A stretch of DNA of 19,818 nucleotides from positions 1 to 19,818 of the forward strand of contig OMQZ01000116.1 in assembly GCA_900313355.1 (NCBI GenBank). Reading direction: 5' to 3'. Positions 1-19,818 of this stretch are shown here, piece after piece (the stretch's first letter is position 1; every line of letters starts with the position of its first letter). The translations under genes and the position numbers were made by a program. The DNA comes from an uncultured Rhodospirillaceae bacterium. Its GTDB lineage: Bacteria; Pseudomonadota; Alphaproteobacteria; RF32; CAG-239. The notes below the pieces were generated by a model that saw only the letters and a program-made list of their open reading frames with translations, made no database searches and had not been told where the DNA came from.

Positions 1-396
1 CCCTGCGCCATCACCGATATGAAAGAAAATCCCTTTTCCGTTTTGATAAACCGTTCCGACAACCGTTGCCGCAAAATCGATCAATCCGTCTTCATTTTTG
101 CTTTTGTTCAAGCGATGAATCATCAACTCGTCGCGTGCCATTTCTATGGCATCAATAATATTTTGACGCACATCTTTTGTGCCGGTTTTGCTCAAAACTC
201 TGCATAAAGTATTACAAACGCATTTCGCACCTATGGCACCATACTTTGCCGAGCCTGCGCCGTCCGAAACAACAGCCACAACCTTTGTCCCGTTTTCCTT
301 AAAAGCAAAAAAATCCTGACACTTCAAAGATTTTGCTTTGTGATACGGTCCGACGGTGCTCACCGCAACAACACGATATTGTTTTTTATTCTTCAT
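1..396 (-). CDS. PP2C-family protein phosphatase, partial (C-terminus beyond left edge)
   Basis: The 132 visible codons start at ATG 394-396 and read off the left edge without a stop. The protein resembles the short bacterial PP2C-type Ser/Thr phosphatases that pair with VWA proteins and kinases. CQD at residues 26-28, SDGAGSAKYG at 44-53, DFAATVVG at 107-114 and HIGDG at 126-130 match, in order, the metal-binding and core motifs of the PP2C fold. No signal peptide is seen, so it should act in the cytoplasm, removing phosphate from Ser/Thr of a partner. The start overlaps the last 11 bases of the VWA gene (386-396), which suggests translational coupling and joint function. The motif order makes the family call fairly safe. 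The substrate is unknown. Confidence 0.85.
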   Translation of the reverse strand, partial: MKNKKQYRVVAVSTVGPYHKAKSLKCQDFFAFKENGTKVVAVVSDGAGSAKYGAIGAKCVCNTLCRVLSKTGTKDVRQNIIDAIEMARDELMIHRLNKSKNEDGLIDFAATVVGTVYQNGKGIFFHIGDGAG

Positions 397-1075
397 TCCA
401 AGCTTCAATATCCTTTAACAAATCGTCAGCATGCGGTGCAGCCTTTGAAACACAAGAAACACTTCGGCTGAGCCATAAGAAAAATTCCGTAAATTTTAAG
501 CCAACCAAACGTTTCGGCTCCATGATTGAAAATTTGGCGAGTTTTTCCATATTTGCGCCCTGTGTTCCGATGGCGTGCACAATAACCTTTTTGTTTTTCT
601 GAGCTTCAATACATCTTTGAGCGGCTTGCTCCCAGCCATAATCCGTCGGTTCGCCGTCGCTGACCAAAAAGATCCATGGCCTTTTTGAGCTAACCCCGCA
701 TGAATCATATAAATCCTTTTGATCTTCAATCTTTTTTAAGGCTAAATCGACAGCCTTGCCAAGCGGAGTTAAACCGCCTGCTTCAACAACAGGCGCCGTA
801 AAATTCATTGCATCAACCCAATCTGAAGCCACAACAGCCTCGTCATCTTTTCCGCAGGCCTTAATAATCAAAATCTGCACACGCGATGATGCATCGATAT
901 CATCTTTCAACTCTTTTTCCAAGGCTTTCAAGCCGGCATTTAATTGCTTAATCGGCTCGCCTCTCATAGACCCCGAACAGTCTAAAACCAAAACACACGG
1001 CGTGCGCTCATTGGCATTGTCGGCAAATTCCACATACGGAATCATATCATCGCTTAATTTTTCTTCTTCTGCCAT
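386..1075 (-). CDS. TerY-like von Willebrand factor A (VWA) domain protein
   Basis: A 229-residue cytosolic protein consisting almost entirely of one VWA domain. A complete MIDAS metal site is visible: DCSGS at residues 32-36, the Thr of GGLTPLGKA at 103, and the Asp of VSDGEPTD at 140. VWA domains of this size, related to TerY, are known as scaffolds in phosphorylation systems alongside PP2C phosphatases and kinases. Here the PP2C gene follows with an 11-base overlap. The start ATG has a good AAGGA Shine-Dalgarno sequence, which lies just after the stop of the preceding lipoprotein gene (11-nt gap), so the three genes read as one operon. The C-terminal 40 residues beyond the Rossmann-like core look helical and end in acidic residues. 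The family call is strong; the exact role is not known. Confidence 0.87.
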   Translation of the reverse strand: MAEEEKLSDDMIPYVEFADNANERTPCVLVLDCSGSMRGEPIKQLNAGLKALEKELKDDIDASSRVQILIIKACGKDDEAVVASDWVDAMNFTAPVVEAGGLTPLGKAVDLALKKIEDQKDLYDSCGVSSKRPWIFLVSDGEPTDYGWEQAAQRCIEAQKNKKVIVHAIGTQGANMEKLAKFSIMEPKRLVGLKFTEFFLWLSRSVSCVSKAAPHADDLLKDIEAWNEE

Positions 1076-1315: not shown

Positions 1316-1879
1316 ATGAAACACTTCTTTCAAATTCTTTTTTTCGTATTCGGATTGATTTTTTCATTTGATGTTACGGCAAAAACAGATGCCGTTAACA
1401 TTTTTGCCGAATCGCGTGATGTCCCGAAACGTTTGATTATCCACGAAAACGGAAAAGGTTACAGCCTATCAGATTTTAAGGGAGAATTTGTGGTTGCGGT
1501 GTTTTGGTCGAAGACGTGCGGTCCGTGCTTAAAAGAACTTGCTGATTTAAACACTTTTTATAAAAACGCTTTGCCTCAGGGAATCCGCCTGATTCTGATT
1601 TCGCCGAAATCCGAATGGAAATCTGCCGTCGAACAGCGCCTTTTTTTGAAAAAGCTCAAGGCGCCGGATATTGAATTTTATACCGACAAGAAAGGCAAGC
1701 TTGCCGGTGACTTTGGCATTTTCAGCACACCTCACACGGTTTTAATTGATGAAAACGCCCAAGAGATCGGACGCATTCGCGGCACTGCCAAATGGGCGGA
1801 CAAACGCGTTTTGAACTACATCAAGTCATTAAAAAAGAACCCTTATCATTCTCAACAAACCTTAAACCAAATTAAATAA
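1316..1879 (+). CDS. TlpA/ResA-like exported thiol-disulfide oxidoreductase
   Basis: A 187-residue thioredoxin-fold protein of the TlpA/ResA/AlkyHydroperoxide-reductase type. An N-terminal Sec signal or anchor occupies roughly residues 1-22 (MKHFFQILFF... ending VTA). The redox site FWSKTCGPC places the CxxC cysteines at 68 and 71. STPHTVLID supplies the cis-proline at 139. Length and motif spacing fit a periplasmic or membrane-tethered reductant that reduces disulfides in exported proteins or cytochrome c apoproteins. The Shine-Dalgarno sequence is weak (AGG two bases before ATG), but no other Met is available and the signal peptide supports this start. It is divergent from the lipoprotein operon. 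In many alphaproteobacteria a TlpA-like gene sits beside argH-lptM-lysA; argH is not present between them here. Whether it serves the nearby Cys-rich secreted proteins is speculation. Confidence 0.86.
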   Translation: MKHFFQILFFVFGLIFSFDVTAKTDAVNIFAESRDVPKRLIIHENGKGYSLSDFKGEFVVAVFWSKTCGPCLKELADLNTFYKNALPQGIRLILISPKSEWKSAVEQRLFLKKLKAPDIEFYTDKKGKLAGDFGIFSTPHTVLIDENAQEIGRIRGTAKWADKRVLNYIKSLKKNPYHSQQTLNQIK

Positions 1880-2039: not shown

Positions 2040-2594
2040 ATGAAAAAAATTATTTTTCTCGTCGCCATCTTATTGGTGACCGGCATTTCTGCCATGGCAC
2101 AGCCTTCTAAGGTGTTGCAGGTGCCTCTCATGACGATGCAGGAGGTTTCCATTCCTGATTCGTGGGGAACTCCCGGCGGCGCATACAAGATTGTTATGCC
2201 CGCGGGCGGCCTTTCTTTCTATTCGGGCTTGTTTGTCCCTACCGACAGGGGATACGGGCTTATTGAGCTTGACAGAAAGCAAAGAAGCTTTTTCTTCCCT
2301 TCTTCCGAGTTGCCTTCCGACATCAACGGATTTTACTACGACAGGAACGGCAACCCTGTTCCCGGCTATTGCCGAATTCAGAGAGGTGTTTCCTACGGCG
2401 ATACATTCTCCGGACCTGTGTTTTACTGGTATGACCTCAATCATAAAAAAGCATGGGTCATGCCTCAGCTCTCGTTCTCCAAGCGCTCTCCTGAGGATGC
2501 AACCGGCATTCCTTACAACTGGAACCGCCTCTTGGTCGACTTGGCAACCGATGGTCCGATCGTCGCCGTCCACCCCGCCTGGTGGAAAGACTAG
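2040..2594 (+). CDS. Secreted protein of unknown function, possibly acquired
   Basis: I do not recognise this 184-residue protein. A clear Sec signal peptide (residues 1-20, ending ISAMA) is followed by QPSK at the predicted mature N-terminus. The mature part is rich in aromatics, Gly and Pro (SWGTPGGAYK, GFYYDRNGNPVPGY, FYWYDLNHKKAW) and has a single Cys at 111, unlike its very Cys-rich neighbour. It looks like a compact beta-rich domain; no catalytic motif is evident. Codon use is richer in G and C (CTC, GGC, GTC, TTC) than flanking genes. No Shine-Dalgarno sequence precedes the ATG, only A-rich sequence (ACCATTAAACCATACAG). These traits, with the AQ signal-peptide end, recall Bacteroidota genes, so transfer is possible. 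It stands alone, with a terminator right after it. Confidence 0.7.
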   Translation: MKKIIFLVAILLVTGISAMAQPSKVLQVPLMTMQEVSIPDSWGTPGGAYKIVMPAGGLSFYSGLFVPTDRGYGLIELDRKQRSFFFPSSELPSDINGFYYDRNGNPVPGYCRIQRGVSYGDTFSGPVFYWYDLNHKKAWVMPQLSFSKRSPEDATGIPYNWNRLLVDLATDGPIVAVHPAWWKD

Positions 2595-2660: not shown

Positions 2661-2697
2661 AAAAAAATCCCTCGGATTAAACCACCGAGGGATTTTA
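2661..2697 (-). terminator. Strong terminator of the giant Cys-rich gene (bidirectional)
   Basis: A perfect 12-bp stem (AAAATCCCTCGG 2664-2675 with CCGAGGGATTTT 2685-2696) has a 9-nt loop. Read on the minus strand it is followed by seven T, 18 bases after the stop of the 2715-11423 gene. On the plus strand TTTTATTATTT follows, so it can also back up the terminator at 2607-2639. Confidence 0.9.
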
Positions 2698-2714: not shown

Positions 2715-5700
2715 TTACCAACCGTGTCCGTGCGGATAAAGATCAAAATTGCAGCCTAAGCTGTTGCATTCAGAAATGCAACGCGCCATCTCTTCGCAAG
2801 CCTCTATGCCTCCTTGGCTACAATGGTGAGCATAGTCCATTTCACAACCCCAGTGGCAAGGATCGCAATAATTATAACTACAGTGGTAATCATTATTGCA
2901 CCTTTGAATACACAGGGCCAAATCATAGCAAAGATCTTCGTTACCTATTGCGGTATCACCGAAATAGCAATACCTTCCTTCGTCGTTCTCACATGTTGTA
3001 TAACAAGACTCGCAGTCCTCTTCATTACCGCCACCGGCAGGTGAACAATTCCTGTAACAATCAATCTCGTAACCTAAATCTGTTGTGACACCAATGCTTT
3101 GGCAAACATAGCCATCTGCAATAGATTCTTCATATCCATAGTCGGAACAACTCTTGCGGCAATTTTCGTCGCTAATCGTGTAGCATGTAATTGTTCCGCC
3201 ACAACCGTCAGAGACCGTATGTTCAACAGACGTTTGGCAAGCATAATCTTGATGATAGCTGTCACCGTCCATCATATTGCTAGGACAACTTGGTGTACAT
3301 GGCTCTACCGAGCATTCCCAACAAGTCATATCAACGCTCAAATCATTTGTTACAGTCTGACGAGTACAATTCATGCCTGCTTGGCTTGAAGAATAGAAAG
3401 GATCACCACTTTGTGTTGTATATTCTTCACAGGTTGTTTTGCAGTTGTCCTGCGAAACTTGGCCTGTATAACATGTGATGGTTCTTAATCCGGTGCTTCT
3501 TGTCGTTGTCGGGCATGTCTCGCATTGGTGTTCTGCGCCACACGTACTGTACAAATTGAAGTATTCGCAGTCTTTTTCGACACAATCGCCGTCTTCTTCT
3601 TTGTAGTAATACCCTGTCTTACATGTAAAGCCCGGCCATCTTCTGTCTTCTTCCTCGCAATAGTTGTTACCGACAATACAAGGTGTTCCTGTCGGGTCAG
3701 AATTTGCCGGAAGATTATCTCTGTTATACGGATATAAGTTTTCATCGCACTCTGTCGGTTCAACGTTCCAATAACAAGGCTGTCCGTTGATGGTTTCAGG
3801 TCCGTCATACGTACAATATGTTCCGGGACGAGTTGTTGTTCCTCCGGGGTGAATCTCAGAACAACCCTTATCTCGACACATATAACAATCTACACTATAA
3901 TCTGCGGTTCTTTGATGTCCTTGTTGAACTTGTGTCGATGGATCACATGGCGTCGAATAGAAATCTTCATCTCCGTTACACGCGTATGGCGTGACACACC
4001 AGTTTGCACCGCTCACAGTTGAGCACAAAAATGCATCCGGACAATCACCTGTTTCATAATAGTCCTCACCAATCTCTTCACATGGTGTTTGTTCGCATTT
4101 TGTACATGTCATATTAACCCATGTTCTTGAATCAGACTCGTAATAATAGTTGCCATATCTTTGAACACAAGTCTGATCTTGAAGATTTTCGTAACCACTC
4201 TTCTTACAACTTGTCGGATAGTAACAGGTAACACCATTAAATGCCTTTGAACTATAATTAAAGTAAGTTTTTGTCGTTGAGTTTGGCGCTGTTCCGGTTG
4301 CAAGAGCGCTATAGCATTGTCCCGGGTTAACACAAGTTTTTGTTGTCGTGGCGCTAGTCTTAAATGTGCTTTGGCTGTTGCTGTCATAATAGCCTGCGAA
4401 ATATTCAAGCCCGCTTGTGTCATAGTCATACCAACCCGAAGCGCAATCCGTTGCTTTCGCACAACCATTAACGTTTGTGCAAGCAGCCCCCGTCGGACAA
4501 GTGTTATAATAACCCGCATTCTCATTACATACGCAGTCTTGGCAAGGCTCGTCTCCGGCGTAGCTGCCGTTATTCGTGCCGTCTAAAATGCGTCCTGTTC
4601 CACAACCACTATTGCTTGTTGCAGATCCCGGAGGACATCCGTCTGCCTCGCATCCCCAGTAACACGTTACATTATGAAAAGCTTCACTGTTGCAAATCCA
4701 GCCGTCTCCAGGATCTGTTGTTACACCGCCCGAGTGCATCTCGCCGCAGTTTTTGCATTCATAGCAAGGATTGTCACCCGCATAGCCGTTTTGGCTTGTT
4801 GTATCTACAACCTCATTTGATGGGCAACCTGCCGTTGAAGTAGCGGCACCATCCGGACATCCGCTCTCAACGCAATCATAGTAACATGTTTGTCCGTTGA
4901 CAACTTTTGTTTGGCATGTGTAACCCGCACCGGGCGCCGATGTTGCAGCGCATCCCGTCAAGACATAACACGTTTTACCGTCTTGCGTTTTTGTTGTATA
5001 GGTAATTGCGCTTTGAGGAATACCGAAGTGAGATGCGAGAGCTGCAACGCTCGTAAATGAGTTCGCGCTTGCATCACATCCCGTAACCTTGTAGCACTCA
5101 AGCGGATCATTAGCTGCCGTTCCGTTATAAGTGCTCGGTGTATATGTAAACCATTCTTGCTCATCAGCCTCGCTGACATACCCTGCTGAAAGCTTACAAG
5201 CACTACCTATCAGACAGCTCGTTCCCGAAACGGTTGTACATGTTCTGTCAGCCGGGCATGAGCTGTAATAACCGCGCTCAACGCAGGTCTTCTCTCTACC
5301 CCACCAACAATGAACGCCGTTGACATCTTCGTCGCCTTCAACGTAGTAAACATTTGTATTCGGCTGACTTGTCCATGTCAGTTTTCCGGAGTGTCTTGCC
5401 GCGCAGTCTTCGCAGAGATAACATATGTCTGTTCCCTGGTGTTCACCGTTTGTCTTAGAGGTATTGATTTTATAACCGGTTCCGCACTCTGCATCACTGA
5501 TTGCATATGGCGCCGTACAATAAACCAAATCCTCACATCCGAAGAAGCATGTTATGTTATGGAAAGCTTGACCGACGCAACTCCATCCTTCGCCGCGATC
5601 TGTTAACTCACCGCCCATTTCCGTACAGCTCTTGCACTCATAACACGGTAACTCACCGGCATAACTCAAAATTGAACTTGTATCCGCAATTTCATCTGAC

Positions 5701-8700
5701 GGACATCCGTTTGTTGATGTTGCGCTTGTGCCGTTCACACATGTTTTAGCTGAGATGTTGTAATAACACGGTTGACCGTCAATCGTTGTTTGAGAATAGT
5801 TATATCCTGCCGTCGGCTTTGTTGTTGTGCCATCCGTATATCTTTCTTGACAAGTCTTGTTACGACATTTATAGCAGTGTGTTCCTCCTTTTGTATCATT
5901 AAAGAGTTCAACCTGCGTTGTTGAGTTACAAGCCGTTGTGTTGTATCCGTTTGTCGTATCGCAACCCGTGACGCTGACACAATCTTCATTATATGGTGCG
6001 CAGCTAAATCCTGTCGGGCATTCATCAAACGCACCGATTGTGCTGCAAGAAAGTTTGACAATGTCATAATAACATTCTTTGCCGTTTAATGTTTCGTGTT
6101 CGTAGCTGTAATCCGATGCCGGCGACGGCTCTGTTTCTGACGTTGTGCCGCCCGGGTGTCTCATCGCACAGTTTTCGCACCTATAGCATGTGTTCTCGCC
6201 GTTCTTTGCTGTCGGATGCGGGCTGCTTGTATTTGCGACATATCCTGTTCCGCAAGCCGCATCATTGATGCCGTATCCGCTCGGACAAGCTTTCGGCTCA
6301 CAGTTATAATAACATGTTTGTCCGTTAACTGTTTTTGATGAACAGGTATAAGCATTTGAGTCATAGTTTGTTTGTGCACACCCTTTCAAAACGTTACAAG
6401 ATGTTCCGCCTTGCGTTTTCTTTTCAAATGTTAAAGCGCTGACCGGAATGCTGTATTTTGTTGCAATTTCTTGCTTACATGTCGTATCGGCAGATGAATT
6501 ACTTGACCAACATGTAGAATTTGCATCTCTGTTACATCCCGTATTTTCATAACAATTCAATGTATCATTTGTTACCTTGCCGCATTTGTTAGCTTCACCA
6601 TATGTGAAATAGTTCTGCATTTGGGTAGCTTGGTAATAATAACCATGCGTTGCGTCCGCATAACAGTTATCACCTGTTTTACAAGTCGTGCCTAGTGCTG
6701 TTGTTACATTCTTTAAGCTTCTGTCGCACTTTGTATCTGAGAGCTCATAATAACCTTGTGTCGCACAAGAAATCTGACCGCAGTTATAATAACACGTGAA
6801 CGTTCCGTAGTCTTGTTCTTGGCAGTTTTCATCGTCTTCTTTAGATGTTCTTGCACCCTCACCGAAGATGTCAACACAGCCTTCGCACTTGCGGCACGTT
6901 GTGCCGAGCAACGTATCTGTTTCGGTCGCTGTTGTTTCACCCAAACAAGTTGAATCTGTGTAACCTGACTGACAACCGTTAATCTCACAACAAGTCGTTG
7001 ATTCTATTGTGTGACACGTTGTATCAAACATCGTTTGGTTAACATCTGCCAGCGGAACGGCAACTGACGTATTGCATCCCGTAATGCTGTGGCAGTCAAC
7101 CTGCGTTGAGCCGACGTTAAATCTATAAGCCGTTGTGTGGTTAAAGTATGCCAATTCCGAAGAAAGTGATGTGATGTATCCCTCATGACAACCTGTCGGT
7201 ACCGAACATCCGTTAACTTTTTGTGTTTGACATTCCGCACCGTTCGGACATCCGTCATAATAACCGTTTGCTATATCGCAAATACATTTGTAGCAAATTT
7301 GTCCACCTGTTTGGTTTCCGGGTTGTGCCATATCAATAATGCGACCCGTTCCGCAACCGTTGTTATCCGTTGCATAGCCTTCATTACAACCCGATTCCTG
7401 GCATTCAACACAGTTCGAAAGCGTATCACCCAAATAAAGATTGCTGTGCGTTATGCTCGTCTTATAACCTGCCGGACATCCGCCGACCGGATAATAAGAA
7501 GCATTATGATCCGAACATTGTTTTGCCACACATTGTTTACATTGTTGTGTGCCTGACATCTCGCCCGTCGGATTTCCTAACTTCCAACCGTTTGCACCGC
7601 CTGAACCGTTGCCGCAGTTTGCTTCTGTTGTTGCGCCGGTTGTGCAGTCTTTAACCTTACAAGCATAGCATTGTTGGTCTCCGACGAAATTGCTTGTCGG
7701 CAAACCTTGTTCATAACCTGCGCCGCAATCACCACCGTTTAAGATTTGTCCCTCTGGACAACTTGAATTTGCTAAACAGTTATAGCAAGGCGTATCACCA
7801 TTATATGATGAAACTGCCGTTCCTAAATGCCAACCGTTTGCCCCGCCTGTGCCATTACCGCAGTTTGCAACGACCGTTGCATCTCCGGGAGCACAAGTTT
7901 TGGCAAAACACTCATAGCAGTCTGCCTCTCCGACTTTGTTTCCTGTCGGTGCCGTTCCGATTGTCCAACCTGAAGCGCCGGCAATGCCGTTGCCGCACTC
8001 TGCCGCACTGACGGCTTCACCAATCGGGCAGCCTGTTTTTTCAACGCACTCATAGCATGTTGCGTTCGTGTTGTCTCCGAGTGTTACCGTGTGGTTTGTC
8101 TGATCATAACCTGATGAGCATGGCACACCTTGATATGCATTATTAATATATTGACATGTTTTTGCCACACAAAGTTTACATCTGTTTGTGTCAGACGGTT
8201 CGAAATACCAACCGGCTGATCCCGTGTCTCCGCATTCTTCCACGCTTGTTCTATGTGTCACATCGCATGGACAGCGACAACAATCCTCTTCACCTGCATA
8301 ACGTCTGTCAGAACAGCTTCTGTATTCACCTTCGTTACAAGTCACGTTCGTTGCAAAATCTTCTTCGCAAGCAAGCGGCGTACATGTTCCGCATTTTGGC
8401 AATACATATGCCGGTGTGATTGATGCCAAAGGTGTGACTTCTGTCCATCCCCAACCGTCATTGCCGTGAGGCGTTTTCTTTGAACAGTTGTTTTCATAAT
8501 ACGAACTACCGCAGCTTGTGATCACATAGCAGCCCGTTAAGGGGTCAACATCACACTTATAATAGCCGTTTTGTTCGCATAAGGTCTTTGTCGGATAATA
8601 AGCCTCGTTTGTTTTTGAAGCACAGCTTGCGCAATAGTAGCACTCACCATCATTTGTTAGCGTTAAAACGCTTGTGACACATCTTGCGTCAGGTGTGTAT

Positions 8701-11423
8701 GCCTTGTATTCAGCCCCATATCTTTGTTCACACAGCTCATCCGGCGTTTTATCAACAACACCAAGATAACAATCTTCTAGTGTGTTGGTTGATGTGTTGT
8801 AATATTTTGTAACTGCAGACGGATATTGTGTTTCAGGATCGAGATTAACTTGACCGCCCATTTCCTCACAAGTTACCGCCTTGCACTTATAACATGCGTT
8901 TTCGCCCGAAGGTGTTCCTTGTTCAGAGCCAAGTGCCCAATATACAATCGAATTTGCCACGCTATTGGTGCATGAATCTAAGTCTCCGTCAAGAGCATAT
9001 CCCTCTTCACAACCCTTCGGCTCGCACTTACCGCAGGCTCGGCCTTCATCAGTTCTGTCCGGATCCGTCACATATTCAAATCCGCTCGCGCATCCTGACG
9101 GGGTTAAGTTTACATCATAGCCTTCAGCACAACCCGTATGAACACATTTGTCTCCCACACGATCATATCCGTTTTCCGTCTTACAAGCTTTTGCTCTATA
9201 TAATGTCTCTCCGCATCCCGTACATTCCAGAGCATCGCTGACCGCAATATCAAACTTGCCGGCAGGTTCTGTCAAAGCATCTTTTGCTAAACCGACACAT
9301 TTTGTTGCACACGTTGCATAATAGCCGTTACAACAAACATCTGACAAATCGGCGCTGCCTTTATTGTTTTTATTCCATCTGCACGCATCTGTCTCGCTCG
9401 GGTTTTGAGGGACCTCACACACACACTGTGTGCAATAAAAGCTTCCGCTTCTTGCTCTGTTTCCGTTTTCGTATTCATCATATTCCAAATTCCAACCGAC
9501 TTCCGTTCCGCAGTCTGAAACTGCCTGATTTGACGTTGTATAAGGCGCACGACAATCGGCCGTTACACATCTGTTGTTTTGTACGCGATAACCTTCCTGA
9601 CATTCTCTGATGAAACAAACTTTTTGAAAGTCGCAAGCTTCATATTCATCTTTAACCGTTGCTTTTTCGTCGTCGCATGCTTCTGGCGTAGAACCTTCCG
9701 GAGCTTCAGAGAAACAGTCTTTATAATAGCCGTTGCAGCATAAGTCTTCTGCTTTTAGCACACCATTTGCGCCTTTATTTGTCGAATTCCAACGACAAAG
9801 ATCTCCCTCGCCCGGTGTTTCAGGCTCTCCGCAAACACATCTGTTGCAGCTTGCTTCGCCGCTTTGAACCGTATTTCCATTCACGTCTGTCTGCGTTTCA
9901 ACCGTCCAGCCATACGCTCCTTGGAACATATTTTCAGATGTCATACAGTCCAAAGTTCCCGAAATATCTGTTGAATAGCCTTCTTCAACATTGCACGCAC
10001 TTGTCTCACAACGATTTTCTCTTACTTCATAGCCTTTTTTGCACGTTCTGATAACATAATATTTTTCACCGCAGGCTTCGCAAACATCATATGCTTCCAT
10101 ATTCGGATCCGGATCCGTATTCAAATCTCGTCCCGAACATCTTCCGATGCAAGCTGAATAATAGCCGTTACAGCACTGGTTTGCCAACTCACCCGTACCG
10201 GCATAAATCGGCTGATATAAATTATTGTTAATCGTGATGGTCGAATGATCGTTCGGCTGAGCTGTATAAACGCAATTCACATTCGGCGAACAAACGCATT
10301 TTCCGCAAACTTCGCCGCCGCTCATACCGCCGCGCTCATAAGTTTCACCCTCTTTTGTACACGTTGTTAACCCTGCACGATATCCTGCCGCACAAGGTAT
10401 TGCTTCACATCTCGTACCATTTTGGCGATAACCGTTCACTTCGTCGCATCTGACAACGCCATAACAGCCTGCTTCGCTTCCTTCAATCAGTTCACAAACG
10501 GCGCCGGGGTTTGCTTCTTCGCAAGTAAACAAGTTCGGATAACAGTTTTCAGGCCTTTCACAGTTCATATAATCCCTGTTAAACGGACACCTTACGCCAA
10601 CCTCTCCCGGATTACCGCTGTCGGCAGGGCAGGTTCCGGACGGAGCATATACATAACCCAAATCTTCGCAGTCAAAATTGACTTCCGTTGATTTTGCGCA
10701 GAAATATGCCAAAACGTTAAATTCATCAATTGTTGCACAAACATATTCTTCGCATTGCGAACATCTGATATTGTTACCGTTGACATCTACCGTATCAATA
10801 TACGTCATCGGCTCCGTACAGCCATCTAACCTGTCACGGCACCCGTTTGAGCTCCAACCGTTTGCAACGTCGCATTCGCATCCTTTATATGATTTAACAC
10901 CGCTCGGGTCTTCGCACATATATCTTTCATCGAGCGGTTCTCTTAATCCTGTTTCATGGCAGAAATATTGATATTCATCACTACAAATACAGTCTTTGTA
11001 AAAAGTTTTACCGTTCGGCAAAACACAGGCATTAACACCGACCGTATTTTTATAATCTTTACAATGCCCAAGACCGTCGCCTTCGTATTTATATTCCGGA
11101 GAACATTTTAAGTGCTTCGCTGCGCAGCCGCATTCCGTCGTATTGCCTTCCGTACATAAATATTCAGGGTGTTCCTCTAATTTGTAGGTATCTGCACGGC
11201 AATAACACCTGTAATATGTCTTTCCGCCCTTTACGCAGCTGACCTGTTCCTGACCTTCCGGACACGGTGTAGTCTGATCAAAGCCTTCGCAGTTAGCATA
11301 CTGCGCGTCAGACAAACAGCTTGTATCACCTCCGAACACCCCCGGAAGGAAGCATACTTTTGCCTCAGCAGAACCGATTATACTCAAAGAAATTAAAAAC
11401 AAAAACGCCTGTATTTTACGCAT
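2715..11423 (-). CDS. Giant secreted cysteine-rich modular protein (2902 aa)
   Basis: One uninterrupted frame encodes 2902 residues. A Sec signal peptide (about residues 1-21, ending GSAEA) leads into a protein in which roughly every tenth residue is Cys (ten in the first 100). Repeated local motifs are GxxCYxC, CCNGYY, NGQ(T/P)CYY and CGxGY. Three repeat classes stand out: three CCNGYY modules (about residues 375-808), four 43-residue units with CGNGxGGANGW (about 1130-1303), and longer shuffled duplications (about 1640-2283). The rest is made of related Cys pairs rich in Asn, Thr, Gly and Tyr. No transmembrane helix, sorting signal, beta-barrel or catalytic motif was seen; the end is simply HGHGW. 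I do not recognise the family. A disulfide-stabilised extracellular fibre, adhesin or coat is the likeliest inference. AGGA lies nine bases before the ATG. It is monocistronic, with its own promoter and terminator. Confidence 0.9.
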   Translation of the reverse strand: MRKIQAFLFLISLSIIGSAEAKVCFLPGVFGGDTSCLSDAQYANCEGFDQTTPCPEGQEQVSCVKGGKTYYRCYCRADTYKLEEHPEYLCTEGNTTECGCAAKHLKCSPEYKYEGDGLGHCKDYKNTVGVNACVLPNGKTFYKDCICSDEYQYFCHETGLREPLDERYMCEDPSGVKSYKGCECDVANGWSSNGCRDRLDGCTEPMTYIDTVDVNGNNIRCSQCEEYVCATIDEFNVLAYFCAKSTEVNFDCEDLGYVYAPSGTCPADSGNPGEVGVRCPFNRDYMNCERPENCYPNLFTCEEANPGAVCELIEGSEAGCYGVVRCDEVNGYRQNGTRCEAIPCAAGYRAGLTTCTKEGETYERGGMSGGEVCGKCVCSPNVNCVYTAQPNDHSTITINNNLYQPIYAGTGELANQCCNGYYSACIGRCSGRDLNTDPDPNMEAYDVCEACGEKYYVIRTCKKGYEVRENRCETSACNVEEGYSTDISGTLDCMTSENMFQGAYGWTVETQTDVNGNTVQSGEASCNRCVCGEPETPGEGDLCRWNSTNKGANGVLKAEDLCCNGYYKDCFSEAPEGSTPEACDDEKATVKDEYEACDFQKVCFIRECQEGYRVQNNRCVTADCRAPYTTSNQAVSDCGTEVGWNLEYDEYENGNRARSGSFYCTQCVCEVPQNPSETDACRWNKNNKGSADLSDVCCNGYYATCATKCVGLAKDALTEPAGKFDIAVSDALECTGCGETLYRAKACKTENGYDRVGDKCVHTGCAEGYDVNLTPSGCASGFEYVTDPDRTDEGRACGKCEPKGCEEGYALDGDLDSCTNSVANSIVYWALGSEQGTPSGENACYKCKAVTCEEMGGQVNLDPETQYPSAVTKYYNTSTNTLEDCYLGVVDKTPDELCEQRYGAEYKAYTPDARCVTSVLTLTNDGECYYCASCASKTNEAYYPTKTLCEQNGYYKCDVDPLTGCYVITSCGSSYYENNCSKKTPHGNDGWGWTEVTPLASITPAYVLPKCGTCTPLACEEDFATNVTCNEGEYRSCSDRRYAGEEDCCRCPCDVTHRTSVEECGDTGSAGWYFEPSDTNRCKLCVAKTCQYINNAYQGVPCSSGYDQTNHTVTLGDNTNATCYECVEKTGCPIGEAVSAAECGNGIAGASGWTIGTAPTGNKVGEADCYECFAKTCAPGDATVVANCGNGTGGANGWHLGTAVSSYNGDTPCYNCLANSSCPEGQILNGGDCGAGYEQGLPTSNFVGDQQCYACKVKDCTTGATTEANCGNGSGGANGWKLGNPTGEMSGTQQCKQCVAKQCSDHNASYYPVGGCPAGYKTSITHSNLYLGDTLSNCVECQESGCNEGYATDNNGCGTGRIIDMAQPGNQTGGQICYKCICDIANGYYDGCPNGAECQTQKVNGCSVPTGCHEGYITSLSSELAYFNHTTAYRFNVGSTQVDCHSITGCNTSVAVPLADVNQTMFDTTCHTIESTTCCEINGCQSGYTDSTCLGETTATETDTLLGTTCRKCEGCVDIFGEGARTSKEDDENCQEQDYGTFTCYYNCGQISCATQGYYELSDTKCDRSLKNVTTALGTTCKTGDNCYADATHGYYYQATQMQNYFTYGEANKCGKVTNDTLNCYENTGCNRDANSTCWSSNSSADTTCKQEIATKYSIPVSALTFEKKTQGGTSCNVLKGCAQTNYDSNAYTCSSKTVNGQTCYYNCEPKACPSGYGINDAACGTGYVANTSSPHPTAKNGENTCYRCENCAMRHPGGTTSETEPSPASDYSYEHETLNGKECYYDIVKLSCSTIGAFDECPTGFSCAPYNEDCVSVTGCDTTNGYNTTACNSTTQVELFNDTKGGTHCYKCRNKTCQERYTDGTTTKPTAGYNYSQTTIDGQPCYYNISAKTCVNGTSATSTNGCPSDEIADTSSILSYAGELPCYECKSCTEMGGELTDRGEGWSCVGQAFHNITCFFGCEDLVYCTAPYAISDAECGTGYKINTSKTNGEHQGTDICYLCEDCAARHSGKLTWTSQPNTNVYYVEGDEDVNGVHCWWGREKTCVERGYYSSCPADRTCTTVSGTSCLIGSACKLSAGYVSEADEQEWFTYTPSTYNGTAANDPLECYKVTGCDASANSFTSVAALASHFGIPQSAITYTTKTQDGKTCYVLTGCAATSAPGAGYTCQTKVVNGQTCYYDCVESGCPDGAATSTAGCPSNEVVDTTSQNGYAGDNPCYECKNCGEMHSGGVTTDPGDGWICNSEAFHNVTCYWGCEADGCPPGSATSNSGCGTGRILDGTNNGSYAGDEPCQDCVCNENAGYYNTCPTGAACTNVNGCAKATDCASGWYDYDTSGLEYFAGYYDSNSQSTFKTSATTTKTCVNPGQCYSALATGTAPNSTTKTYFNYSSKAFNGVTCYYPTSCKKSGYENLQDQTCVQRYGNYYYESDSRTWVNMTCTKCEQTPCEEIGEDYYETGDCPDAFLCSTVSGANWCVTPYACNGDEDFYSTPCDPSTQVQQGHQRTADYSVDCYMCRDKGCSEIHPGGTTTRPGTYCTYDGPETINGQPCYWNVEPTECDENLYPYNRDNLPANSDPTGTPCIVGNNYCEEEDRRWPGFTCKTGYYYKEEDGDCVEKDCEYFNLYSTCGAEHQCETCPTTTRSTGLRTITCYTGQVSQDNCKTTCEEYTTQSGDPFYSSSQAGMNCTRQTVTNDLSVDMTCWECSVEPCTPSCPSNMMDGDSYHQDYACQTSVEHTVSDGCGGTITCYTISDENCRKSCSDYGYEESIADGYVCQSIGVTTDLGYEIDCYRNCSPAGGGNEEDCESCYTTCENDEGRYCYFGDTAIGNEDLCYDLALCIQRCNNDYHCSYNYCDPCHWGCEMDYAHHCSQGGIEACEEMARCISECNSLGCNFDLYPHGHGW
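4575..6510 (-). repeat. Shuffled large duplications in the C-terminal third of the giant protein
   Basis: Two pairs of related segments lie inside the coding sequence. Pair one is about 6230-6510 and 4790-5065 (shared features: IPxSAxT, KTQxGxxC, TVNGQTCYYNC versus VVNGQTCYYDC). Pair two is about 5460-5745 and 4575-4860 (shared features: ATSTxGCPS, YAGxxPCYEC, GxGWxC, AFHNxTC). The pairs overlap at 4790-4860, so modules have been copied and rejoined rather than kept in simple tandem. Edges are estimated by eye from the translation. Confidence 0.7.
7516..8035 (-). repeat. Four tandem 43-residue Cys modules in the giant protein
   Basis: Four consecutive units of about 130 nt are present, each of the form C...NCGNGxGGANGWxxGxx...CYxCxxxxC. 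Units one, two and four carry CGNG followed by GASGW or GANGW; unit three is diverged (DCGAGYEQG). The unit boundaries fall at the final Cys of each CYxC-x4-C group. Even Cys counts suggest each folds as a small disulfide knot. Confidence 0.75.
9000..10300 (-). repeat. Three large CCNGYY modules in the giant protein
   Basis: Three related modules of about 135-150 residues are anchored by CCNGYYSAC (near 10170), CCNGYYKDC (near 9735) and CCNGYYATC (near 9335). Two are preceded by CRWNxxNKG, all have an internal CGEKYY, DFQKVCF or CGETLY-type segment and a GYxVxxNxC-like element, and modules end in CxxCxC. Outer limits are approximate. Confidence 0.72.
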
Positions 11424-11456
11424 TGCAAAGCATCCTAAAAAAATTCTTTTTAATCA

Positions 11457-13441: not shown

Positions 13442-13467
13442 GCCGCCTTTTATGGCGGCTTTTTTTA
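13442..13467. terminator. Bidirectional terminator between aspS and the small Cys-rich gene
   Basis: GCCGCC (13442-13447) pairs with GGCGGC (13454-13459) around a TTTTAT loop. Eight-base T-rich sequence follows on the plus strand, and six T on the minus strand. It ends aspS. The minus-strand stop codon of the 13465-13788 gene overlaps the plus-strand T-tract. Confidence 0.9.
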
Positions 13468-13788
13468 TAAGCTTCGTGCCTTTATCAGGTTCGGATCTTC
13501 TTCTGTCGGTTCAAATTGTATCGCTTCCTGACATGTATAGTTCGTGCCGTTTATTAAATATTTAAATGTCCACCCGATTGTACATTTATAGCCGCAACTT
13601 AAAGGATATTTTGTACAAACAAGTTCTTGCCCGTTTCTTTTTGCTCCCGGCCGATCATAAAAATATCCGCTGCCGCATAGGTTTGAACACATTTGGTTAT
13701 GTATGTCTTTTTGAGCCATATCTTTTCCGAAAACCGGATTTAAAATAAATAAAAAAAACATAGCAACCGTCAGAATTTTTTTATTCAT
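13465..13788 (-). CDS. Small secreted six-cysteine protein, unknown function
   Basis: A 107-residue protein with a Sec signal peptide (residues 1-21, ending NPVFG) and a mature part of about 86 residues holding six Cys (34, 38, 58, 65, 69, 86). The even number and the CxxxC, CxxxxxxC and CxxxC spacing suggest three disulfides after export. Its texture (GSGYFYDRPG, CGYKCTIGW, NGTNYTC) resembles single modules of the giant Cys-rich protein across aspS, which may mean common ancestry or a working partner; this is inference. The Shine-Dalgarno sequence is weak (GAGAATGTAAG before ATG), but the signal peptide fixes the start. TATAAT upstream gives a -10 element. The family is not recognised. Confidence 0.75.
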   Translation of the reverse strand: MNKKILTVAMFFLFILNPVFGKDMAQKDIHNQMCSNLCGSGYFYDRPGAKRNGQELVCTKYPLSCGYKCTIGWTFKYLINGTNYTCQEAIQFEPTEEDPNLIKARSL

Positions 13789-15419: not shown

Positions 15420-15438
15420 GTCTATAAAAATTATAGAC
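15420..15438. promoter_or_regulatory. Perfect palindrome just upstream of the kinase-like promoter
   Basis: GTCTATAA (15420-15427) and TTATAGAC (15431-15438) form an 8-bp inverted repeat with a 3-base centre. It sits five bases upstream of the TTGACA -35 and includes the stop codon of the glycosyltransferase gene. No T-run follows on either strand, so it is not a good terminator; an operator or activator site is possible. Confidence 0.35.
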
Positions 15439-18400
15439 TTCTTTTAAATTTAATAATCCTTGCTGATTTTGATGTTGTTTTTTGAGACTGTTCAGTTTGC
15501 CATGCTTGCAAATTATTAATCACGGACTGTTGCTCATCAATTTTTTGCATCAACTCAGTTTGTAGTCCCTTCACATCTGTTTGTATTTTCTCAATTTCTT
15601 TGCTCATTTGAGACAAAACTTTTTCAAGTTTAGTGTTTATTTGGGATGTCATTTGCTCATTTACCTTTTGAAGCAATTCCTTTTGTTGCACTTCCATATC
15701 AGATTGCATTTTTTTAATTTTTGAACTTAACTCAGCAAATCGGCTTTCAAAAGACGGATCCGTATCTGTTTTCTTTTTATGGAACAATAAATAGCCTAAG
15801 CCTTTGTTGTGCTTAAATTTACGGTAAACCTTATTGGAAATATTTTCCAAATCCTTCAAATTTGGATACATTTCATTAATCAGCGCATTCAATTCAGCTT
15901 TTGTATATTCATGTGAGGTTTGCTTAATTTCAACACCAATCGTTTGCCCATCTTTAACAGCCATTTCATAGCGATATGGTTCGTCGTGCCATGTTTTAAT
16001 GGGAGATGATAAAATCTCTTTGCCATCGATTTTGATTGATTTGTAATCAATCCAAACAGGCATGCGAACCCCTTTGCTGTTTTTCTTATCTTGTCCGCGA
16101 AAAGAAAATTGCAACTTTCCGTCTTTGATAATTTTAATACTTAACTTTTGTCTTGAATTTGACGTTTCAATAACTGCTCCAACACCTTTTTCATTTATAA
16201 ACCATTTCGGTTTATTTGTTTTTATGTTTTTCCCGGTAACGACAATATCGTTATCTGATGCGCCATAATTTTTAACATCTATCCTCATCTCTTGAAGAGT
16301 TTGCTCAATTTCTTTTGAACTTGGGTTAAGTGATTTAGCTTTTTGCATAATCCGTTGCAACAAACTGCTTTCTACTGTTTTTTCGTTCATTGGCGTACCT
16401 TTCATTCTAGCATTATAAACCTGTATTCCGCATATATAAATTTTTTTATGTTCTTTTGTTTGTTTTTGATAAAACAAACCACCTCGATATTTAAATTTGC
16501 GATGAACAATTTTTGAAACCTTATCTAAATCAGGCAAATTCGGGTTAAACAGTTTAATCAGCCATTTTAACTCATTTTGGTCGTATTGGTGTGGAATTTG
16601 CTTTATTTCGACGTTAACAATTTGCCCGTCTTTAACAGACATCTCATAACGATATGGTTCATCATGCCATGTTTTAACAGGTGATGATAAGATTTCTTTG
16701 CCATCGATTTTGATTGACTGATAATCAATCCAAACTTTCTTGCGAACCCCTTTACTGTTTTTCTTATCTTGACCGCGAAAAGAAAATTGCAACTTCCCGT
16801 CTTTAATAACTTTAATACTTAACCTTTGTCTTGAATTTGATGTTTCAACAACTGTTCCGATACCTTGCTCATCAGCAAACCATCCCGGTTGACTTGCTTT
16901 TATATTTTTCCCGGTAACAACAATATCATTATCTGATGCACCAAAATTCTTGATATCTACTCTTATCTCTCGAAGAGTTTGCTCAATTTCTTTGACTCGT
17001 TTGTTAATTAACTTAATCTTTTGTAGCATTCGGCATGATAAATCATAAAAACACCATATTGTTTTTTTTATTTGAGAATCCTTCACATTTGTACTTAATG
17101 CTACTCTCAGGCTTTTAAGCGAATTGTCATAAATTTTTTGAGCCATATTTTGTAGACACGTTTTCATTATTTGATAATCTTGATCTTTCTGCTCAATTGC
17201 CATAATCATTGTTTTTGTTAATTTTTCATTGCTTTTATAAACAAAACTGTTTTCATTATTAAAGCCATATTTTTTCGCAAATTTTTCAACCACTAGACAT
17301 GGCAAATTAAATCCATATATCAATTGAAATGAACCGCTTGTGCCTAGCTTTAGATAACGGTTATGTTCTTTATTTATTGGATCTAATAATGTTAGAAAAT
17401 AGTCGGCATTTTGAACTTCTTGATACATTTGAAAGTATCCTAAACGTCCTTTTATATCAAAATATTCTTGAAGTTCTTCCGGTATAATTAATTCCTTTCC
17501 TTTACCCACAATAGTTACTTTAAAATTCTTAATCCCTTCATTGTATAATTTTTGAACAGTAGAAATCAATAAATCATAATTTTTTCTTTGTTTTTCAATA
17601 TTTCCGACGACAATAAAATTAGTTATTTTATTTTTATGATGCGGTAAAATTTTACCAAAATAGATGGGAGTAACTTCAAAAATACGATCATTTTTTCTGA
17701 ATTTTTTCAGAACAATTGGAATAGCTCTCCAGTATACATTTCGAAGGTTTTGTTGTGTATGCTCCACACATAGTTTTTGCAGACCCTTTTGTTTATATTC
17801 AATCAAATCTAAAATTGAGGTTCTATCGTAATCATAAAGTACATCGGAATTAAACAAGCATACCTTATATTCCGACATCGCACTTGAATTGAGATACTTG
17901 ATAATATTTTGTTGTTTTTCATATTTAACATTAATATTATCAAACATATATAATGGGTTTTCATTACTCTGTTTCTCATTGATTAATACATCAACGGCGT
18001 AACCTAAGTCTATAAAGTATTGAATATACCCCGGTAAACATTCTCCATGACAACTGTTTAATTCAACAATCAAAACCCTGTTTGCATAAGTCAATATATA
18101 TTTATAAAAACTATTTAATGGTTCATTTTTATAATTTAATTTATTTTTCGCCATGAAAGATACTATTTTTCTGACAAAGATATCTTTGATTTCCTTGGCC
18201 TGGATTCTGCGCATATGGTATTTACATTGCTCTACAAAAAATGATAAATACTCTTGTTCCAGTTCCAAATATTTATTTTCTGTGCACAAAAATGTATAAA
18301 CATCTTGTAAGAAATAAATAATGTCTGAAGTTTTATCGATACTTTTAGAGATTCCCATCGTTGAAGATTGCTGATTGTCTCTATAAATATACAAATTTTC

Positions 18401-19818
18401 ATCAAGAAAAGATATCTTTTGTGCCAGGATTAGAGATTTTACGCTAAAAATGACATCTTCGAAATATATTTTTGGCGTAAAGAATATATCGTTTTCAAGA
18501 ATAAATTGCCGACGATACAATTTACAAAATGGATAAAAGTGAGAAAATAGGGCATTTTTAATATCTCTATATGTGCAAACTTTATCAATTTGTAATTTAT
18601 AAGAACTTAAATCTCGAAATTTATCAATGAACATTTGTTTCGTTTGATTGTTATAGGTCGCGCAACCATACAAACAAATATCGCTTCCTTCAGAAACAAT
18701 TTTATTATATAATTTCTCCAAACACTCATTATCTAGGTAATCATCCGAATCACAAAAAAATATGTACTCTCCCTTTGCGTATTTGATTCCATTATTTCTA
18801 GCCACTCCTTGTCGCTGGTTACTTTGTCTTATAATACTTATCCTTTTATCTTTTTGAGCATATTCCTTCAATACATCAAAACTGTTGTCCGTTGATTCAT
18901 CATCGATACAGATAATTTCAATTTCTTTTAATGTTTGATTAATTAGAGAATCTAAACAATCACCTAAATATGTTTGGGTGTTATATACCGGTATTATCAC
19001 AGATATTCTAGGATGAAGGTCTATTGTCCTTTGATTAATTATCTGAACATTTAGTTCTTTTTGTATGTCTGAATAGAACGCTGATATTTTCGAAGAAGAA
19101 GATAATTTTACATATTTTAAAATCTCTTTATTACAAGCATCATACATTTGTAAAGGACAACGATTTATCAAGTCCCTCATACTCATAACAAAAGTAGCAT
19201 CTAAGGCTTCTTTGTAGACATTAATTTTTCTGTATTTTTCGAGCGTTTCATATACTTTACAGTAAATATTTACAATATCTAGAATTTTTCTGCTTGAATT
19301 TCTTTCACTCATAATCGAGTTTTTGCGCTGTAGATAAAAATACATTGCTTTATCTGTTACAGAATAAGTTTGACATTGAACCATATACGCCCATAGCCAA
19401 TATTCATCCTCATTGATTAAGCCCTCAGGAAATCTGATGTTAAACTTCTTAATAATAGACATTTTATATAACTTATTCCATGCTGTCGGAAAAATTTCGG
19501 ATCGTATATTCTGTCCTATCTCAAACTTTCCTACTTTATGCCATCTATTAATCCATGCTTGAACTGACTGGATTTTTTTCTCATCACCAACGCAACAAGT
19601 TTTTCCTATTGAAACGTCAGAATTATCATAAATCATATTTTTATATAAAATTTCTATTGTATTTTCTTCTATGTAATCATCCGAATCTATAAAATAAATC
19701 AATGCGGAACGACAATTTTTGATACCAGTATTACGGGCCGCTGATAATCCTTGATTTTTTTGTGTTATAATTTTAACACGTTCATCTTTTTTTTCGTACT
19801 CTTCCAAAATTTTTAGAG
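15431..19818 (-). CDS. Giant multi-domain glycosyltransferase, partial (N-terminus beyond right edge)
   Basis: At least 1461 codons; the frame is open to the right edge (LKILEEYEKKDE), so the first TTG at 19807 is not the start, and about 50-60 residues are missing. Counting from 19807, residues 1-250 are a GT2 (GT-A) domain with DSDDY at 41-45. Residues 267-570 are a second GT2 domain (ISVIIPVYN start, a second DSDDY near 353). Residues 577-863 look like a GT-B, GT4-type domain (VVGNIEKQRKN, VTIVGKGK). Residues 939-1106 and 1165-1332 are two near-identical copies of a module with WIDY and TWHDEPYRYE. Residues 1347-1446 form a coiled coil (MQKIDEQQ-type heptads). Such proteins build cell-surface polysaccharide or glycosylate surface proteins. 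No membrane helix is seen; the basic tail KSARIIKFKRSL may contact the membrane. Confidence 0.9.
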   Translation of the reverse strand, partial: LKILEEYEKKDERVKIITQKNQGLSAARNTGIKNCRSALIYFIDSDDYIEENTIEILYKNMIYDNSDVSIGKTCCVGDEKKIQSVQAWINRWHKVGKFEIGQNIRSEIFPTAWNKLYKMSIIKKFNIRFPEGLINEDEYWLWAYMVQCQTYSVTDKAMYFYLQRKNSIMSERNSSRKILDIVNIYCKVYETLEKYRKINVYKEALDATFVMSMRDLINRCPLQMYDACNKEILKYVKLSSSSKISAFYSDIQKELNVQIINQRTIDLHPRISVIIPVYNTQTYLGDCLDSLINQTLKEIEIICIDDESTDNSFDVLKEYAQKDKRISIIRQSNQRQGVARNNGIKYAKGEYIFFCDSDDYLDNECLEKLYNKIVSEGSDICLYGCATYNNQTKQMFIDKFRDLSSYKLQIDKVCTYRDIKNALFSHFYPFCKLYRRQFILENDIFFTPKIYFEDVIFSVKSLILAQKISFLDENLYIYRDNQQSSTMGISKSIDKTSDIIYFLQDVYTFLCTENKYLELEQEYLSFFVEQCKYHMRRIQAKEIKDIFVRKIVSFMAKNKLNYKNEPLNSFYKYILTYANRVLIVELNSCHGECLPGYIQYFIDLGYAVDVLINEKQSNENPLYMFDNINVKYEKQQNIIKYLNSSAMSEYKVCLFNSDVLYDYDRTSILDLIEYKQKGLQKLCVEHTQQNLRNVYWRAIPIVLKKFRKNDRIFEVTPIYFGKILPHHKNKITNFIVVGNIEKQRKNYDLLISTVQKLYNEGIKNFKVTIVGKGKELIIPEELQEYFDIKGRLGYFQMYQEVQNADYFLTLLDPINKEHNRYLKLGTSGSFQLIYGFNLPCLVVEKFAKKYGFNNENSFVYKSNEKLTKTMIMAIEQKDQDYQIMKTCLQNMAQKIYDNSLKSLRVALSTNVKDSQIKKTIWCFYDLSCRMLQKIKLINKRVKEIEQTLREIRVDIKNFGASDNDIVVTGKNIKASQPGWFADEQGIGTVVETSNSRQRLSIKVIKDGKLQFSFRGQDKKNSKGVRKKVWIDYQSIKIDGKEILSSPVKTWHDEPYRYEMSVKDGQIVNVEIKQIPHQYDQNELKWLIKLFNPNLPDLDKVSKIVHRKFKYRGGLFYQKQTKEHKKIYICGIQVYNARMKGTPMNEKTVESSLLQRIMQKAKSLNPSSKEIEQTLQEMRIDVKNYGASDNDIVVTGKNIKTNKPKWFINEKGVGAVIETSNSRQKLSIKIIKDGKLQFSFRGQDKKNSKGVRMPVWIDYKSIKIDGKEILSSPIKTWHDEPYRYEMAVKDGQTIGVEIKQTSHEYTKAELNALINEMYPNLKDLENISNKVYRKFKHNKGLGYLLFHKKKTDTDPSFESRFAELSSKIKKMQSDMEVQQKELLQKVNEQMTSQINTKLEKVLSQMSKEIEKIQTDVKGLQTELMQKIDEQQSVINNLQAWQTEQSQKTTSKSARIIKFKRSL
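15813..16314 (-). repeat. Glycosyltransferase module, copy 2
   Basis: About 500 nt that align without gaps to 16491-16992, offset by exactly 678 nt. It encodes KEIEQTLQEMRID to KVYRKFK and includes GASDNDIVVTGKNIK and SFRGQDKKNSKGVR. Most differences look like third-base changes, indicating a recent duplication or ongoing gene conversion. Confidence 0.9.
16491..16992 (-). repeat. Glycosyltransferase module, copy 1
   Basis: The partner of the copy at 15813-16314. Long DNA stretches are nearly identical (for example around 16690-16810 against 16012-16132). The 58-residue linker between copies (positions 16315-16490) is unique and contains MKGTPMNEKTVESS. The module resembles the beta-rich accessory domains carried by other gut-bacterial GT2 proteins, by recollection only. 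Confidence 0.9.

Follow-up and report, generated by a model that had tools for sequence, protein, structure and literature searches.

The window, by which we refer to the whole stretch of 19,818 nucleotides that was analyzed, contains a gene for a cysteine-rich protein of 2,902 amino acids, here called P0001. The genome from which it derives, G000, represents an uncultured bacterium of a ruminant-gut type; it is a draft assembly of 1.24 Mb in 219 contigs and is 78% complete. The gene is located on the minus strand and extends from an ATG codon at position 11423 to a stop codon at positions 2715-2717, with no internal stop codons (Table 1). This agrees with a previous sequence-only reading, in which a single intact frame of 2902 residues was described and cysteine was placed at about one residue in ten; the exact count was 287 cysteines, or 9.9% of the residues, and the largest gap between consecutive cysteines was 36 residues. 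Since the total is an odd number, one or more cysteines must remain unpaired, and the number of disulfides cannot exceed 143. The N-terminus, MRKIQAFLFLISLSIIGSAEA followed by KV, was leader-like when read by eye, which is consistent with the Sec export proposed previously and suggests that the protein is exported.

Table 1. Positions of the cysteine-rich gene, its segments and its flanking features in the window
Feature	Positions	Strand	Basis
Giant Cys-rich protein gene, 2,902 aa, 287 Cys	2715..11423	-	Frame, translation, selection data
Sec-type leader (putative), residues 1-21	11361..11423	-	Read by eye
N-terminal "CFLP" domain as aligned, residues 22-298	10530..11360	-	Alignment, model pLDDT 78.1
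Module C ("CPF"), residues 251-294	10542..10673	-	Profile, 69.5 bits (seed includes this copy)
Module B1, residues 376-474	10002..10298	-	Profile
Module B2, residues 529-621	9561..9839	-	Profile
Module B3, residues 667-762	9138..9425	-	Profile
Four tandem A modules, residues 1132-1303	7515..8030	-	Profile; model pLDDT 86.9
Span with ten more A modules	4524..9986	-	Profile
A modules in span, first five: residues 480-531, 624-670, 805-849, 1053-1088, 1346-1383		-	Profile
A modules in span, other five: residues 1713-1751, 1895-1932, 1969-2006, 2189-2225, 2263-2300		-	Profile
Variable part (51-99% identical to P0002 in segments of 100 residues), residues 1301-2902	2718..7523	-	Alignment
C-terminal segment, residues 2780-2902	2718..3086	-	BLAST
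AGGA 9 nt upstream of the ATG, candidate ribosome-binding site	11433..11436	-	Sequence reading
Terminator-like hairpin with T run, after stop	2661..2694	-	Sequence reading
TlpA-like thioredoxin-fold gene (CGPC), convergent neighbor	1316..1879	+	Pfam/NCBIfam, neighborhood

The signals for expression of the gene appeared to be mixed. The ribosome-binding site and the terminator that had been noted previously were both recovered as candidates, the former as the AGGA motif and the latter as a hairpin with a 10-bp stem and a 9-nt loop followed by a T run past the stop codon. The hairpin was absent from the output of the terminator scanner because its loop exceeds the 3 to 8 nucleotides to which the scanner is restricted. 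The promoter, on the other hand, was not borne out, as the 2 promoter-like matches were at chance level (1.4 +/- 1.0 expected).

The gene was preceded by a divergently oriented aspS gene in the window as well as in the genomes G004 and G005. The opposite flank contained a gene for a 184-amino acid protein, the TlpA-like gene, a gene with a VWA domain and, finally, the end of a gene for which the counterpart in G004 was PP2C-like. The TlpA-like gene was located beside the cysteine-rich gene both in the window and in G004, and in 3 loci from the genus g6 it directly preceded the cysteine-rich gene on the same strand, about 80-115 bp upstream. However, it was identified in 86 of 100 relatives and in 53 of the 56 members of f1, the uncultured alphaproteobacterial family to which G000 belongs. 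Since the gene is near-universal in this family, the adjacency is weak evidence and at most suggestive, and we do not regard the TlpA-like protein, a core gene product, as a dedicated partner. It was also noted that the VWA-domain gene was located next to the gene with the PP2C-like counterpart in G004 (window 1-1075, minus strand), and that these two also accompanied TlpA-like genes in 3 g6 genomes. Adjoining aspS was a gene for a small, leader-bearing and cysteine-containing protein of 107 amino acids (13465-13788, minus strand) with counterparts in G004 (L035) and G005 (L030) and no Pfam match at E ≤ 0.1. Further away (15431-19807, minus strand) was the gene for a protein of 1,458 amino acids, the C-terminal half of which contained near-identical repeats; 2 stretches of this protein were assigned to glycosyltransferase family 2 and another, weakly, to glycosyltransferase group 1.

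P0001 was found to be a mosaic of repeats, as the sequence-only reading had stated. We defined 3 types of modules by iterated profiles, with seeds taken partly from P0001 and partly from its relatives: module A, with about 40 positions and 4 cysteines, module B, with about 80-95 residues and 11 cysteine columns, and module C, which terminates in CPFD..Y..C. With these profiles, for which copies in P0001 itself were among the seeds, 14 A modules, 3 B modules and 1 C module were identified, and together with the N-terminal domain they summed to roughly two fifths of the chain. Additional cysteine repeats recurred within the protein across residues 1380-2560, and stretches up to residue 2800 recurred in paralogs, according to BLAST. 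The last segment, residues 2780-2902, gave no BLAST match at 1e-3 to the other family proteins compared (P0002 left out), although a BLAST comparison of residues 2634-2902 with the single locus L033 yielded weak stretches. No anchor and no conserved C-terminus were found in P0001.

The searches for known domains in P0001 gave no family in Pfam-A or NCBIfam at E ≤ 1, in line with the sequence-only reading, which had recognized no enzymatic, anchoring or secretion domain, and a single match with an E-value of 1 among the PDB sequences, and thus no confident match of its modules to a characterized family in these libraries. A few weak matches among the relatives were set aside, namely Antistasin in 1 of 7 members of A6 (E 4.3e-4), TPP_enzyme_C in 2 of 7, and ZCCHC24_C in 1 of 14 relatives of the N-terminal domain. 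The A, B and C modules are not described in the curated libraries searched, and no paper on such a family of cysteine modules was identified among the literature matches listed, with subscription journals mostly outside the scope.

Structure models were inferred with AlphaFold2 for the N-terminal domain (14 rows; mean pLDDT 78.1, pTM 0.55, with values below 50 in model stretch 205-226) and for the 4 tandem A modules (7 rows; mean pLDDT 86.9, pTM 0.64). In the latter, each A module was predicted to form one long β-hairpin with the CxxC pair on the second strand. A fold search of the PDB gave no significant match for either model.

To place P0001 among its relatives, we searched approximately 5.8 billion proteins, with candidates restricted by length and shared words, which returned 5 proteins including the query (P0001-P0005). 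The most similar, P0002, was an intact protein of 2,907 amino acids with about 88-89% identity to P0001, followed by P0003 (3,216 amino acids, about 67-70%), P0004 (41% identity over 56% in the search, 39% overall in alignment A1) and P0005 (27% over 16%). Two named relatives were from uncultured Alphaproteobacteria, one from reindeer (Reindeer_2_mag_112) and one from the yak reticulum (RGIG9974), and the lineage is tentatively placed in the GTDB order RF32. In a search of 107 genomes, 14 contained a match to P0001, its own genome included: 10 of the 11 genomes in the same genus, 3 in the genus g6 and 1 in g5.

The cysteines were conserved to a higher extent than the sequence as a whole. In alignment A1, they were retained at 286 of 286 aligned positions in P0002, 269 of 283 in P0003 and 218 of 254 in P0004, as compared with 2564/2887, 1909/2853 and 980/2539 for all residues. 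The figure for P0004 leans high, because the aligner favors cysteine matches and the distal part of P0004 is poorly aligned; over residues 1-1400, the numbers were 140/140 for P0003 and 134/140 for P0004. In the N-terminal domain, for which the P0001 fragment contains 30 cysteines, 28 cysteine columns were invariant in 14 sequences. In the C-terminal third of P0004, tails of low complexity were noted, with TQSGTKYR repeats and CSASCS-like stretches among them, which are perhaps slipped or hypervariable repeats.

The gene is under purifying selection. By the Nei-Gojobori method, comparison with the N-terminal piece of the counterpart in G004 gave dN/dS values of 0.03, 0.06 and 0.12, and comparison with the distal piece gave 0.10, 0.15, 0.27 and 0.24. 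The frame has been kept in close relatives, intact in P0002 and open in G004, where it is split into 2 pieces at contig ends; the terminal 336 residues of the first piece had no match to P0001. Two G004 frames (L035:39-1047 and L086:1-1794), one of them a secretin gene on another contig, ended at contig ends in residues that mismatched their G000 counterparts, perhaps as a result of misassembly. The divergence between P0001 and P0002 was unevenly distributed, with identities of 98% to 100% per 100 residues over residues 1-1300 and of 51% to 99% thereafter (Table 1).

P0001 is one member of a lineage-restricted modular family, rather than a unique protein. Module B was identified in 14 of 100 relatives, every one of which belonged to f1, and in only 1 of 385 genomes across the class, which was G000 itself, although the sample held 4 other f1 genomes. 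Module C was present in 42 of the 100 relatives, corresponding to 41 of 56 genomes in f1, the single genome from f2, a second family of the same order (a marginal match, 5.4e-4), and none of the 43 other members of the class. Across the phylum, 1 of 398 genomes contained it, again G000. The homologs that the sequence-only reading had suggested to look for are thus lineage-wide at the level of modules. G000 contained a second place with module C on contig C139, in a frame of at least 842 amino acids that was interrupted by the contig end, and a third, weak one on C48 (3.9e-5). The number of module C matches per genome reached 75 in G014 (1.6 Mb), 71 in G032 and 61 in G028, and many of the expanded module C proteins were encoded by frames of 200-450 amino acids.

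In some of these relatives, the modules were fused to a domain of a known surface adhesin. An intact protein of 1,647 amino acids in a genome of a sister genus (L089, G028:C13) consisted of a leader, a C module, a B module, 9 A modules, a B, an A and another B module, and then 3 Lcl_C-type domains, with a score of 85.2 bits for Lcl_C (PF07603) against the Pfam cut-off of 34.9; 2 weak B rows overlapped the Lcl_C part. Another locus with an open 5' end (L090) contained A and B modules and an Lcl_C match of 45.7 bits, and L091 scored 26.8, below the cut-off. Among 9 short or mid-sized relatives that were scanned, Lcl_C exceeded the cut-off in 2 (L065, 43.6 bits; L066, 37.5 bits), fell below it in L069 (15.5 bits) and was missing from the other 6. 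L042b was also below the cut-off (17.9 bits). Of the 52 relatives examined for Lcl_C, 12 gave a match, 11 of these being among the 30 in f1, and in 8 of the 52 the score exceeded the cut-off. We do not claim an Lcl_C tip for G029, a relative in g6, where the match scored only 9.4 bits (E 0.0021) and the highest-scoring reversed control 5.7 bits. The domain was found in none of the 11 genomes of the genus of P0001, and in P0001 itself there was no Pfam match at E ≤ 1 and a score of 0.9 bits with a profile made from the lineage.

The Lcl protein of Legionella is described as a type II secretion-dependent adhesin that is located at the surface and binds glycosaminoglycans (PMC11162425). The position of Lcl_C (DUF1566) after the same A, B and C modules as in P0001 implies that the modules serve as stalks under adhesin domains in the proteins of the sister genus, and the plan of these relatives, a repeated stalk plus a tip, is that of Lcl. 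P0001 differs in that it lacks Lcl_C and is 2,902 amino acids long, with a stalk of cysteine modules instead of the collagen-like repeat in Lcl. P0001 may work in a similar manner to the Lcl_C-tipped proteins.

Giant adhesins of the RTX/LapA type, autotransporters and adhesins with Ig-like repeats are cysteine-poor, modular and exported proteins of thousands of residues that vary distally. P0001 resembles them in its length, modularity, apparent export and distal variability, but differs in its cysteine content and N-terminal leader, and it contains none of their Pfam domains: no β-barrel, RTX repeats or Ig-like domain was recognized (Pfam-A, E ≤ 1). The variant-specific surface proteins of Giardia and the surface antigens of Paramecium are large, exported proteins with about one cysteine in ten residues, repeated cysteine modules and a variable part. 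P0001 shares these features, with export being apparent only, but those proteins are eukaryotic and P0001 has no Pfam match. Paramecium_SA (PF01508) did not match P0001 at E ≤ 1, and 1 of the 14 relatives of the N-terminal domain gave a non-significant match (E 0.046), which was also set aside.

We also considered a phage or plasmid origin, which was rejected: tblastn gave no match in 50,697 phage or 72,556 plasmid records, none of the 58 pattern matches in IMG/VR was a relative, and PHROGs gave one non-significant row (E 0.021). N-glycosylation sequons were not enriched, with 39 observed versus 32.0 (SD 4.9) in shuffled sequences.

The need for on the order of 100 disulfides that had been inferred previously gained support from the position-specific conservation of the cysteines. 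Among 66 B modules with residues at both positions, 17 lacked Cys7 and Cys8 together and 10 lacked one of the two (Fisher p = 5e-8; after thinning at 50% identity to 46 modules, p = 2e-5). This co-loss is moderate evidence for pairing, since several of the losses were inherited by orthologous modules from a single event. Weaker associations were seen for Cys5/Cys9 (p = 3e-4, 3 double losses) and Cys6/Cys9 (p = 0.004, 2 double losses), with p values uncorrected for many tests. The oxidation machinery, however, speaks against the inference. G000 contained a DsbA-like gene with a CTHC motif, but the Pfam profile for DsbB gave no match in the 30 f1 genomes (G000-G029) or the single f2 genome, as compared with 19 of 21 other members of the class, and VKOR was likewise absent from these 31 genomes by its profile and present in 1 of the 21 others. 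Missing contigs do not explain the absences, because 18 of the 30 f1 genomes are listed as at least 98% complete. A divergent DsbB could escape the profile; either the family has an unrecognized oxidant or many of the cysteines are not in disulfides.

We suggest, with a probability of roughly 0.55, that this uncultured alphaproteobacterium with a small genome exports P0001 through Sec as a modular stalk or adhesin of its surface. In the periplasm, which the chain would enter first, the short modules would fold singly as cysteine-clasped β-hairpins, and the tandem modules would build a long, stiff and protease-resistant rod. The N-terminal half, with the CFLP domain and B and A modules, is constant between near relatives, and the distal half would vary through gain, loss and replacement of modules, as expected where a protein meets a varying partner such as a host, a ciliate, plant fiber or other microbes. 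In the sister genus, the stalk modules bear Lcl_C tips, and in the genus of P0001 any binding would have to reside in the cysteine modules. The conserved cysteines, the dN/dS values, the predicted hairpins of the A tandem, L089, the constant and variable parts and the Cys7/Cys8 co-loss argue for a stalk or adhesin; the lack of Lcl_C in P0001 and its genus, of an anchor or conserved C-terminus, of recognizable DsbB and VKOR in the family and of a fold match argues against it. The sequence-only reading had proposed a new class of fiber, adhesin or armor protein, and such a role is plausible for P0001, which is a real, selected, cysteine-packed and apparently exported giant, but it belongs to a lineage-wide family with members fused to a known adhesin domain.

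Alternatively, P0001 may be passive armor with no specific ligand, comparable to the cysteine-rich coats found in gut protists, and protect the cell against proteases and grazing by protozoa. Such a coat would account for the extreme cysteine content along the entire chain and for the lack of a binding domain in Pfam, and the host gut is rich in proteases and ciliates. We nevertheless regard it as rather unlikely, because related proteins employ the modules as stalks for Lcl_C and because a constant and a variable part fit recognition better, although evasion of immunity or predators by a coat could yield the same split. If many of the cysteines were instead reduced or bound Zn, Cu or Fe in the anoxic gut, the protein would be an extracellular metal or redox buffer. 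The absence of DsbB and VKOR fits such a polymer, as does the modest enrichment of CxxC pairs (38 versus 28.5 expected, SD 4.9, in 1000 shuffles), but it is made improbable by the leader, the DsbA-like gene, a histidine content of only 1.3%, and cysteine conservation and module architecture that favor a fold over bulk thiol; the predicted A module also needs no metal, although metals lie outside such modeling.

A released P0001 that targets a host, ciliate or rival microbe in the manner of an effector or toxin seems very unlikely, since no enzymatic domain was found in Pfam or NCBIfam and repeats make up most of its length, even if its size, apparent export and variable distal half, and the big module repertoire in some relatives, would suit that role. 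An assembly artifact or a decaying repeat gene is already disfavored and hardly credible: the draft state of G000 and the broken G004 gene, with its unmatched terminal residues, are set against the intact homologs P0002 and P0003, the low dN/dS values and the invariant cysteines.

More tentatively, and with doubt, the lineage may possess an extracellular kit of its own, made of cysteine-clasped hairpin modules, that is used both for Lcl_C stalks and for all-cysteine giants of about 300 kDa, with their hundreds of thiols oxidized independently of DsbB and VKOR through an unrecognized oxidant or electron acceptor that serves the DsbA-like protein. If the stalk or adhesin interpretation is true, P0001 adds to the giant surface proteins of bacteria a class from uncultured gut species that has cysteine modules in place of Ig-like or RTX repeats, and it becomes testable how a Gram-negative bacterium with no recognizable DsbB or VKOR in an anaerobic habitat would produce proteins with as many as 143 disulfides.

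As for passage of the outer membrane, type II secretion of P0001 is not claimed. The one secretin match in G000 had genes with a TcpQ domain and with similarity to TrbC/VirB2 as its neighbors, which suggests a mixed pilus/type IV-like system. Such sets of secretin, TcpQ and TrbC/VirB2-like genes were located at L085 (G000:C17) and L086 (G004:C24).
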